From Prochlorococcus sp. AG-402-O16 (GTDB lineage Bacteria > Cyanobacteriota > Cyanobacteriia > PCC-6307 > Cyanobiaceae), in the NCBI GenBank assembly GCA_003216415.1, contig QCIY01000007.1:1-64000 (forward strand): 64,000 nt of DNA, in the 5' to 3' direction. The notes beneath the pieces are model-generated. The model saw nothing but the letters and a program-made list of their open reading frames with translations. It was not told where the DNA came from and did not search any database. This document shows, in pieces, positions 3,587 to 41,457 of this stretch; the stretch's first letter is position 1, and every line of letters starts with the position of its first letter. A program made the position numbers and the translations under genes.

Positions 3587-3838
3587 ATGGCTATCTACTT
3601 AAAAATAACAAACCCTACAGAGGTTGTAAAAAAAAAGACCTCAAAATGGCTTACAGACATCACACCTGAAAGAATTGATAGGAAATTGGTAGAGGATGAA
3701 GTGATAAAAGGAATTATCGAGCAATTAACATTAGAGGGCATAAAAGGAGAAATATCAGCAATTAATGGGTTTGAAGTAAATGAATCTTCAGTAATAACAA
3801 AAAATAATTTTGTTATAAGAAAAACAAAAACTTTTTAG
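3587..3838 (+). CDS. conserved-looking hypothetical protein, 83 aa
   Basis: A soluble protein with mixed charged and hydrophobic composition and no signal peptide. The pattern suggests a small alpha/beta fold: TEVVKKKTSKWLTDITPERI, a helix with VEDEVIKGIIEQL, then two strands. No known catalytic motif is visible. It sits between a membrane protein and the Mrr-like gene on the same strand with short gaps. I have no function to offer. Confidence 0.6.
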   Translation: MAIYLKITNPTEVVKKKTSKWLTDITPERIDRKLVEDEVIKGIIEQLTLEGIKGEISAINGFEVNESSVITKNNFVIRKTKTF

Positions 3839-3858
3839 ATCGAAAATAAAAATCTTTA

Positions 3859-4728
3859 ATGAAAATTTTTGTTATTTTAATTATTTTTATCAATTTTTTA
3901 ATTTTTATAATTGCAACAGATTATCAAATTAAAAAGAAAAGGTTTAAATTAAATAATGCCTTAAATTCAAATTTATTTATTCAAACAATTAATAATTTAA
4001 TAGAAGAAAACAAATACAATTTATTAGAGGAAAGGATTAGATTAAGGGAAATAGATGCTTACGGTAACGAGGATTATAAAAAATGGATTGGGAATCCACC
4101 TCTTGATGAAAAAGCTATAGAGAAAAACATATTAAATGGCTCTAAGCGATTTAAAGAGGGCATACCATACTTTTGGGAAAAAGTTATTTTAAAAAAATTT
4201 GGAAGTATGGAATTATTTTTCGAAAAGTGGAGATCTTATTGTGCTGAGAATCCTACTATTGATGATGAGATAATTGGATCCATTAGAAATCTTGAAAATG
4301 AAGATTGGTTTGTATTCATAGCAAGCCAAATAGAGAAATCATGCATAAACCTAATAGAAAATGATTACTCAAAAAAAATTAACGAAAGCTATAAAAAAGG
4401 TATTAAATTTGAAAATCATTGCATGAAAATCCTTAAACAACATGGCTGGGAAGTAAAAGAAACCCCTAATACTGGAGATCAAGGGGTTGACTTAATTGCA
4501 TCAATAAATGATTTGAGAATATGTATTCAATGCAAAGATCATGAAAAAGCTATTGGAAATAAAGCAGTGCAGGAAATTGCAGCTGGTAAATTATTCTGGA
4601 AAGGTACGCATGCAATAATAGTCTCAAAATCTGGGTTTACAAAGTCTGCCCATCAACTAGCAAAATCAAATAAAGTGAAACTAATCAATTTATATCAATT
4701 GAAAGATTTAGAAAAGATTATTGTTTGA
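3859..4728 (+). CDS. membrane-anchored Mrr-like restriction-endonuclease-fold protein
   Basis: Residues 1-20 form a hydrophobic anchor (MKIFVILIIFINFLIFIIAT). A central helical region of about 150 residues is unassigned. The C-terminal third is a PD-(D/E)XK nuclease of the Mrr_cat type: E185 in KFENHCMKIL, D211 in GDQGVDLIA and Q224-C-K226 in IQCKDHE, followed by NKAVQEIAAG and IIVSKSGFT. Mrr enzymes cleave modified DNA, but the fold is also used in repair and in proteins that only bind DNA. The N-terminal anchor is unusual for a restriction enzyme. No methylase or specificity gene lies nearby, so it is probably not a classical restriction system. It ends 5 bases before the convergent MAPEG gene. 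Confidence 0.75.
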   Translation: MKIFVILIIFINFLIFIIATDYQIKKKRFKLNNALNSNLFIQTINNLIEENKYNLLEERIRLREIDAYGNEDYKKWIGNPPLDEKAIEKNILNGSKRFKEGIPYFWEKVILKKFGSMELFFEKWRSYCAENPTIDDEIIGSIRNLENEDWFVFIASQIEKSCINLIENDYSKKINESYKKGIKFENHCMKILKQHGWEVKETPNTGDQGVDLIASINDLRICIQCKDHEKAIGNKAVQEIAAGKLFWKGTHAIIVSKSGFTKSAHQLAKSNKVKLINLYQLKDLEKIIV

Positions 4729-13279: not shown

Positions 13280-13378
13280 ACAAAAAAAAAGATCTCATAT
13301 AGAGATCTTTTTAAAATTGATTTAAAACAAGTGTTTCCTTGTTTCCACTGTAATAAATCAATTCCTCCTACACACATA
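13280..13378 (-). ncRNA. Yfr2-type small RNA with terminator
   Basis: Read on the minus strand, this region has the Yfr2-family hallmarks. Two GGAAACA copies (GGAAACAAGGAAACA, 13332-13346) are shown in a loop closed by a perfect 10 bp stem (AATTGATTTA at 13354-13363 with TAAATCAATT at 13315-13324) plus an inner AGTG/CACT stem. A rho-independent terminator follows: an 11 bp stem (13286-13296 with 13302-13312), a five-base loop and a run of T. The 5' end probably lies near 13376, with GTGTGTAGGAGG just inside. Yfr2-5 RNAs are abundant in marine picocyanobacteria. The assignment is by motif and structure, not by alignment. Confidence 0.75.
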
Positions 13379-13454
13379 TTTACTATGACACCTAAATTTA
13401 AAATATGTAATACCTATTAGACCTCTATCTTATCTGTCACATTACTAAAAATAC

Positions 13455-13557
13455 AAAAAGTACTCGAACATTGCAGTCGAGTACTTTTTAAGTTATCAGA
13501 AAAAAGTGTGTGAGGAGTTTCTGATTAATTTAACTTACTCCGCAGGTAATCCAAAAG
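13455..13557 (-). ncRNA. second Yfr1-core RNA (Yfr1-like), with terminator
   Basis: Minus-strand RNA carrying ACTCCTCACACAC (complement of 13506-13518), identical over 13-14 bases to the core of the canonical yfr1 at 41.4 kb. The core lies in a 15-base loop closed by an 8 bp stem (ATCAGAAA 13518-13525 with TTTCTGAT 13495-13502). It is followed by a perfect 13 bp terminator hairpin (13455-13467 with 13477-13489, nine-base loop) ending in T. A TATACT -10 element lies at 13563-13568, which would place the 5' end near 13556 and give about 100 nt. The canonical yfr1 has a GGGG/CCCC 5' hairpin and an unpaired core, so this is a different RNA and not a simple duplicate. Confidence 0.65.
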
Positions 13558-13639
13558 GCTACAGTATAAATTACTAATTATTTAAATATTTCAAAAAATT
13601 TTGACCGTTGATGAAAAAAATTATCAAACTCAAAAAAAC

Positions 13640-13774
13640 ATGAAAAGTATTTATAAAAAAATCATTTTTATAATTTCAGCAATTGCTCTTTTCACAGTAA
13701 TAGTAGTAGTTGTCAAATATTCGCTTAGCTACATTGAAAATAATCCTGAAAAATACTTACCTACTCAAAAATAA
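13640..13774 (+). CDS. signal-anchored membrane peptide, 44 aa
   Basis: ATG at 13640, TAA ending at 13774. Basic N-terminus (MKSIYKK), one strong helix (IIFIISAIALFTVIVVVVKY) and a polar tail SLSYIENNPEKYLPTQK. It is probably a single-pass protein with the tail outside or in the lumen. It lies just right of the two RNA genes on the opposite strand, with the putative Yfr1-like promoter facing away from it. Function unknown. Confidence 0.45.
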   Translation: MKSIYKKIIFIISAIALFTVIVVVVKYSLSYIENNPEKYLPTQK

Positions 13775-14481: not shown

Positions 14482-15267
14482 TTATTTATGAAGTTTAGGA
14501 AACAAAAGAGATACAACGCAAATAACACTAATTGCAGGCCCAGGCGAGAGATTAAAGACTATAGAAAGAATAAAGCCCATAAGTGAGATGCATAATCCAA
14601 AAAATGAAGACCTCATCATTGCAATTCTTAAACTATGAGCATTATTTAGACCTAACAAAGTTGGGGTGGAAAGAAGAGCAATTACAAGAATTACTCCTAC
14701 TGCTGACATTGAACTAACAATTACTAATGCAGTTGTAAAACTCAAAGCAAGATTTAATAAAGAAACGTTTATACCACTCGCAGATGCACCTTCTGGATCT
14801 AATCCCACATAAACAACCTTTTCATATCCGAAAGTCATTAAAAGTATGAATACAAAAAATGCAATTATTGTTCTTAGTAAATCTCCAAAATTTGCTGTCA
14901 ATAAATCGCCAAATAATACTGCCTCCAAATCAATCCTTATACCGAGTAGAGGAATAATAAGTACTCCAAACCCAAGCATTCCAGCGAGAATAGTGTTCAT
15001 AATTGCTTCATAATTTTCACTTTTTCTATTAGTTAAACTTTCCGCAATTATTGAGCCTAAAAGACCACTTATAACACCACCAATTGAGGGGTGTATTCCA
15101 AGCGCTAATGCGAGAGCAAGTCCAGGCAACACACAATGAGAGATTAAATTAACTTGTAATAATCTCTTATGAGTAATTAATACAGTTCCCATAGCTGGGC
15201 ATAAGATTCCTGAAAATAAAGTTATTATTAATGGTATAAGCCACCAGTTGTTATTTATAAAAGACAT
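14482..15267 (-). CDS. znuB: zinc ABC transporter permease ZnuB
   Basis: 261 aa, about eight membrane helices, ABC-3 family. Typical segments are GILCPAMGTVLITHKRLLQV, LISHCVLPGLALALALGIHP and, later, GVILVIALLSTPTLLGLNNA. It is the membrane channel for high-affinity Zn(II) (or Mn) uptake with ZnuC and ZnuA. The starting ATG (15265-15267) is only 17 bases from the divergent start of zur, too close for an independent promoter. It must therefore be transcribed from inside or beyond zur, probably from the znuC promoter. Confidence 0.88.
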   Translation of the reverse strand: MSFINNNWWLIPLIITLFSGILCPAMGTVLITHKRLLQVNLISHCVLPGLALALALGIHPSIGGVISGLLGSIIAESLTNRKSENYEAIMNTILAGMLGFGVLIIPLLGIRIDLEAVLFGDLLTANFGDLLRTIIAFFVFILLMTFGYEKVVYVGLDPEGASASGINVSLLNLALSFTTALVIVSSMSAVGVILVIALLSTPTLLGLNNAHSLRIAMMRSSFFGLCISLMGFILSIVFNLSPGPAISVICVVSLLFPKLHK

Positions 15268-41397: not shown

Positions 41398-41457
41398 AAA
41401 AAAAGCCCGATTTATCGGGCGATTTAGTGTGTGAGGAGTATGGGGTTTCCCCCATTA
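41398..41457 (-). ncRNA. yfr1: Yfr1 small RNA
   Basis: The minus strand contains GGGGGAAACCCC as a 5' hairpin, then the unpaired Yfr1 core ACTCCTCACACAC (complement of 41427-41439), then the terminator stem GCCCGAT-AA-ATCGGGC and seven T residues: the canonical three-part Yfr1 layout in its canonical place between trxA and guaB. About 57-60 nt. The promoter -10 is likely TATCAT just upstream (about 41463-41468). Yfr1 is a near-universal cyanobacterial regulator whose core pairs with the ribosome sites of outer-membrane porin mRNAs. Confidence 0.95.

Follow-up and report, generated by a model that had tools for sequence, protein, structure and literature searches.

Does this Prochlorococcus genome encode a second Yfr1? 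The window (the whole 64,000-nucleotide stretch that was analysed, from Prochlorococcus sp. AG-402-O16, a very abundant photosynthetic cyanobacterium of the ocean) contains the 13-mer ACTCCTCACACAC twice, at 13506-13518 and 41427-41439, both on the minus strand; 100 dinucleotide shuffles yield not a single copy. The second site belongs to yfr1 itself, the canonical carrier of the core (41402-41455, minus strand; Rfam model RF01116, 57.1 bits against a gathering threshold of 38), and serves here as the comparison. The RNA encoded around the first site is, almost certainly, the ortholog of Yfr18, a small RNA of the Yfr10 family whose gene immediately precedes, on the same strand, that of Yfr5, a member of the Yfr2 family. 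The locus is genuine and conserved, and it has been described before: the apparent second Yfr1 is a known sRNA. The analysis adds a probable position for the start of transcription, an upstream element that is conserved, and figures on conservation, all of which could guide work on the balance between core-bearing sRNAs and their Yfr2-family antagonists.

Identity of the RNA and its neighbor

The Yfr10 model, RF02362, matches positions 13442-13525 of the minus strand over its entire length (model positions 1-78 of 78; 55.6 bits, gathering threshold 43), and the Yfr1 model RF01116 finds no match at 13.5 kb in the same scan of the window. The architecture agrees with this assignment. In Yfr1 the core is unpaired between two stem-loops; here the identical 13 nucleotides, ACUCCUCACACAC (13506-13518), occupy the 15-nucleotide loop of a hairpin (13495-13525) that is closed by an 8-bp stem, AUCAGAAA/UUUCUGAU, and is followed by a long terminator hairpin (13454-13490) and a T-rich stretch extending to approximately 13449, much as originally predicted. 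A loop-borne core (ACUCCUCACAC), then a terminator, and directly downstream, in HL Prochlorococcus, a Yfr2-family gene are the hallmarks of the Yfr10 family. The last of these had been overlooked: an RF01701 (Cyano-1) match (80.2 bits, gathering threshold 41) lies at 13310-13377 of the minus strand and carries the anti-core GUGUGUAGGAG, a near-complement of the core, so that its product is the opposite interaction partner and a different RNA. Cyano-1 is presumably the Yfr2 family. The presence of GUGUGUAGGAG in this match and its location where MED4 has Yfr5 support that equation; the paper that named Cyano-1 in 2010 lists it with no mention of Yfr2 in the relevant passages (PMC2864571).

Which member of the family is it? 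One genome of the collection, G014, has RF02362 matches at C1:346661-346738, 383217-383296 and 972241-972321, and the published MED4 coordinates are 346661..346738 for Yfr10, 383230..383312 for Yfr12 and complement(972284..972388) for Yfr18 (PMC2518516); the coincidence at Yfr10 indicates that G014 is MED4 or nearly identical to it. Blastn blocks show the window to be collinear with the Yfr18 region of this MED4-like genome from 10.4 to 17.7 kb, on both flanks, one block (13323-13763) aligning directly with the MED4-like yfr18-yfr5 pair (positions 3625-4062 of locus L126). The window locus is accordingly read as the yfr18-yfr5 pair: yfr5 at 13310-13377, and yfr18, specifying a mature RNA of probably ~76 nt, at 13449-13525. 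MED4 Yfr18 was established by Northern blotting and 5' RACE, its loop-borne motif and its Yfr5 neighbor being described in the same report, whose table also has Yfr18 for the cultured high-light strains MIT9301 and AS9601 (Steglich et al. 2008, PMC2518516). Place beside Yfr5, order on the strand, core in the hairpin loop and collinear flanks are shared; the MED4-like copy differs in lacking an upstream GGAGU and in its terminator loop. Yfr10 and Yfr12 resemble the window RNA in hairpin and core, terminator, -10 signature (see below) and a Yfr2-family neighbor, and differ from it in terminator sequence and in location, Yfr10 lying beside Yfr2 and Yfr12 beside Yfr4. The prediction of a second core-bearing RNA, distinct from yfr1 and conserved, thus stands; its novelty does not, since RF02362 and MED4 Yfr18 already exist. 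(Divergent from yfr18, at 13601-13774 of the plus strand, is an open reading frame of 57 amino acids with a transmembrane segment, recognized by eye; the table of the 2008 paper places PMED4_11681 there [PMC2518516].)

Orthologous loci were collected through a neighboring gene (14482-15267, a metal ABC-transporter permease as read by eye). Among the 80 found, 75 reach the sRNA, the other five (L025, L029, L031, L058 and L071) having too little DNA, and AAACTCCTCA is retained in all 75. These 75, the window and three further loci make up the set of 79 sequences referred to below. The exact 13-mer core is present in 72 of them and an 11-mer in 76, the exceptions being L024, L051 and L086, of which L051 also has a changed stem; the hairpin as a whole is nearly invariant.

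Folding of 13449-13525 yields -22.3 kcal/mol, compared with -8.0 ± 2.3 for 200 shuffled sequences (z -6.2). Most of this excess is due to the terminator (13449-13494 alone, z -5.7); taken by itself, the loop hairpin stands out only modestly (z -2.6; 4 of 200 shuffles fold equally well). (A technical note: RNAalifold returned no structure for the A1 alignment, in which, by our own reading, MAFFT had placed two types of terminator two columns out of register; single folds and the Rfam model were used for that reason.)

Partner and function

What might the RNA do? Experiments with MED4 provide the frame: Yfr2 pulls down Yfr1 and Yfr10 and blocks access of both to ppa, altering UCCU in the core abolishes binding, and the target sets of Yfr1 and Yfr10 overlap only in part, a difference that the authors ascribe to presentation of the motif in a linker or in a loop (PMC6778093, 2019). 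With Yfr10 (rather than Yfr18) as the bait, Yfr2 was slightly and Yfr3-5 clearly enriched, and the same paper places Yfr10 homologs upstream of Yfr2 homologs in HL strains. By homology with MED4 Yfr10, the loop-borne core of Yfr18 would pair with mRNAs, including some that Yfr1 binds as well; it would likewise pair with the 5' segment GUGUGUAGGAG carried by Yfr2-family RNAs, and these would then titrate Yfr18. Presentation in a closed loop, where Yfr1 has an open linker, may restrict the targets that can be reached, as PMC6778093 proposes. The original suggestion that a Yfr1 core displayed in a loop could act on only a part of the Yfr1 targets is in line with the published Yfr10 targets and with the structure of Yfr10 and Yfr18.

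The partner is a nearly constant companion: a Yfr2-family RNA follows in 79 of 79 Yfr18-type contexts (76 recognized by pattern, three by eye) and in 39 of 40 Yfr10/12-type contexts (38 by pattern, one by eye). One could therefore turn the relationship around and regard Yfr18 as primarily a decoy that titrates Yfr2-family RNAs and so frees Yfr1, without regulating mRNAs itself. The constant, anti-core-bearing Yfr5 neighbor suits such a role, and so does the observation that the binding of Yfr1 and Yfr10 to Yfr2 is stronger than their binding to ppa mRNA (PMC6778093). The proposal is nevertheless unlikely: peaks of 253 mRNAs were enriched with Yfr10, whose core mediates direct binding to ppa (PMC6778093), and at L124, one of the 40 Yfr10/12-type copies, the downstream partner is missing. 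Direct regulation of mRNAs by Yfr18, with Yfr2-family RNAs as its antagonists, remains the preferred reading.

The sequence GUGUGUAGGAG has been quoted for the 5' ends of Yfr2-5 (PMC2518516). Pairing of Yfr18 with Yfr5 is predicted to join core and anti-core with one bulge. Among 137 distinct tandems the anti-core is GTGTGTAGGAG in 114, GTGTGAAGGAG in 13 and something else in 10, and the perfect complement of the core, GTGTGAGGAG, occurs in none. There are, in other words, two main designs, GUGUGUAGGAG (114/137) and GUGUGAAGGAG (13/137), and each leaves a bulge against the core. No clear compensatory change emerged from 100 combinations of core and anti-core (of which the 12 weakest and the 10 with a variant core were listed): none of the 10 variant cores is rescued by a matching change in the partner, though some C-to-T changes are tolerated through G-U pairs. 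A few partners have a damaged anti-core, and the two weakest combinations are predicted to pair at -9.2 and -7.4 kcal/mol, compared with -18.9 for the best.

Because core and anti-core are known to be near-complementary, a transcript reading through from yfr18 into yfr5 might lock itself. The tandem would then be a cassette whose unprocessed transcript pairs core with anti-core and keeps both halves inactive; termination or processing would release two mutually neutralizing RNAs, and the efficiency of the terminator would set Yfr1-type activity. In folding calculations on 83 of 89 sequences (left out were the five short loci named above and one with its Yfr2 loop off pattern), the core has a mean unpaired probability of 0.94 in the RNA on its own and 0.15 in the read-through form, where it rises to 0.64 once the anti-core is blocked; the read-through value is below 0.3 for all 83 tandems. 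We know of no Yfr18-Yfr5 precursor. The idea did not turn up in the accessible portions of the literature on Yfr10, Yfr18 and the Yfr2-Yfr10 precursor in Prochlorococcus; a 270-nt Yfr10-Yfr2 precursor has been seen in MED4 (PMC2518516). As an account of how the tandem works, such self-locking is a speculation with the odds clearly against it.

Where does the RNA begin?

The most likely start, as judged from sequence, is position 13525, which would make an RNA of ~76 nt ending at the terminator, presumably near 13449. Numbering from the A of an ATCAG, one finds T at -12, A at -11 and T at -7 in 78, 78 and 79 of the 79 Yfr18-type contexts, in which most upstream DNA is conserved anyway, and in 40, 39 and 39 of the 40 Yfr10/12-type contexts, in which upstream DNA is otherwise variable. 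This signature, which ends 6 nt before ATCAG, is the standard pattern of a -10 element; the corresponding putative element of the window is TAAGTT at 13532-13537 of the minus strand (mostly TARATT in orthologs). The published 5' end of MED4 Yfr10, 346661, is that same A (PMC2518516). The near-invariance of the signature and this 5' end together are our grounds for placing +1 at 13525.

The published coordinates of MED4 Yfr18 are harder to accommodate: they place the 5' end 67 nt upstream of the hairpin and the 3' end short of the terminator (972284-972388, compared with approximately 972246-972321 for the hairpin-terminator unit of the MED4-like locus), and this 5' end fits neither 13525 nor the start that had been predicted. 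The 76-nt band seen on the Northern blot of MED4 Yfr18 fits an RNA extending from 13525 to ~13449; the coordinates published with it do not (PMC2518516).

The original prediction had instead drawn an RNA of ~100 nt, starting just downstream of a TATACT box, whose 5' GGAGU would pair with ACUCC and hide the core. The box (13568-13563, minus strand) is present and is kept in 76 of the 79 sequences. If +1 is 13525, however, it lies at -43 to -38, within a conserved upstream element, TAATTTATACTGTAG (13559-13573), and its placement just before the 5' end, as the -10 element of a longer RNA, is probably wrong. Some facts do speak for the longer RNA: besides conservation of the box, that of GGAGT (exact in 69 of 79 sequences, three more having GGGGT, which is still able to pair), that of the DNA between TATACT and hairpin in Yfr18-type loci, and the published MED4 Yfr18 5' end, likewise upstream of the hairpin (PMC2518516). 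Against it, most Yfr10/12-type contexts have AATACT (the first base is A in 35 of 40), so that the -10 signature is lost there, and the longer RNA with its hidden core is decidedly improbable.

The hiding of the core fares no better when considered separately. GGAGU (13541-13537, minus strand) overlaps the putative -10 element, and with +1 at 13525 it would not be transcribed; it probably lies upstream of Yfr18 RNA and outside it. Across the 79 sequences the core is invariant at the five bases facing GGAGU, and seven sequences, including the MED4-like L126 and L134, cannot form all five pairs. Folding of the 108-nt RNA (by a method that cannot show pseudoknots) leaves the core open, at unpaired probabilities of at least 0.98 except for the first base. 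Sequestration by GGAGU is thus unsupported. An H-type pseudoknot of GGAGU, AUCAGA, ACUCC and UCUGAU was also considered, and was rejected on the same seven of 79 sequences and on the likely 5' end at 13525.

The consensus of the upstream element, TAATTWATACTRTAG, occurs exactly at only two places in the AG-402-O16 genome, here and upstream of a further copy of the core at C6:52988. As the mark of a wider regulon the element was discarded: allowing two mismatches gives 53 matches in this genome and 64 for the reversed control. With one mismatch at most there are four places, two of them Yfr10-family loci, a count that stands without a control at that level.

Distribution of the core and of Yfr10-type loci

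The AG-402-O16 genome (1.49 Mb) has three exact copies of the 13-mer, the two in the window and that at C6:52988. A search across the genus finds one to three copies in each of 60 near-complete genomes, this one included; the reversed pattern is absent from all 60. Chance appearance of the 13-mer in AT-rich intergenic DNA, for which no argument was found, is refuted by its absence from shuffles and reversed controls, by the covariance-model match and by conservation, and merits practically no credence.

Yfr1 is indeed single-copy, as had been supposed, with exactly one RF01116 match in each of the 60 genomes. RF02362 matches occur in 59 of them (above cut-off in 57) and in 167 of 200 genomes of mixed completeness, in searches whose stricter filters may have lost weak matches. 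In 53 of the 60 (one of them, G053, with a match below cut-off) yfr1 has an RF02362 match on its own contig and strand at a distance of 24.1-34.1 kb (median 28.0), the arrangement also seen in the window. The remaining seven comprise G024, with no match, four genomes with the match on another contig (G091, G208, G054 and G113) and two with it elsewhere on the same contig (G203 and G139).

The copy at C6:52988 shares 721 aligned bases with the MED4-like Yfr12 locus and 317 with the Yfr10 locus, and is therefore assigned to the Yfr12/Yfr4 locus. Its core is intact (L129), and that of the MED4-like counterpart (L128), as in MED4 Yfr12, has degenerated to CATATAC: decay of the core in MED4 is not general.

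A phage-borne copy was sought as well. An 18-mer of the hairpin including the core has no exact match in viral contigs, and a blastn search of phages with the tandem gave 16 records, all with E of at least 1 and covering at most 15% of the query. An 18-mer of the Yfr2 loop does match two viral contigs exactly; in both contigs the match falls within a protein-coding frame, the same one in each, and Rfam models find nothing in either stretch. The two matches are accordingly taken as chance.

A few loci are unusual. Two genomes, G030 and G123 (51% and 65% complete), have six RF02362 matches each, compared with one to three in most others (L135-L140 are some of these loci), an expansion of Yfr10-type loci and most likely of the tandem. 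In L124 (G020:C35:5511-5587, minus strand) the 330 nt that follow the Yfr10-type hairpin contain no Yfr2-type RNA, which makes it the sole orphan among 119 contexts. In L141, two near-identical Yfr10-type hairpins, each with its Yfr2-type RNA, lie on opposite strands (at 516, minus, and 2889, plus) with some 2.4 kb between them, an arrangement suggestive of a recent duplication with inversion.
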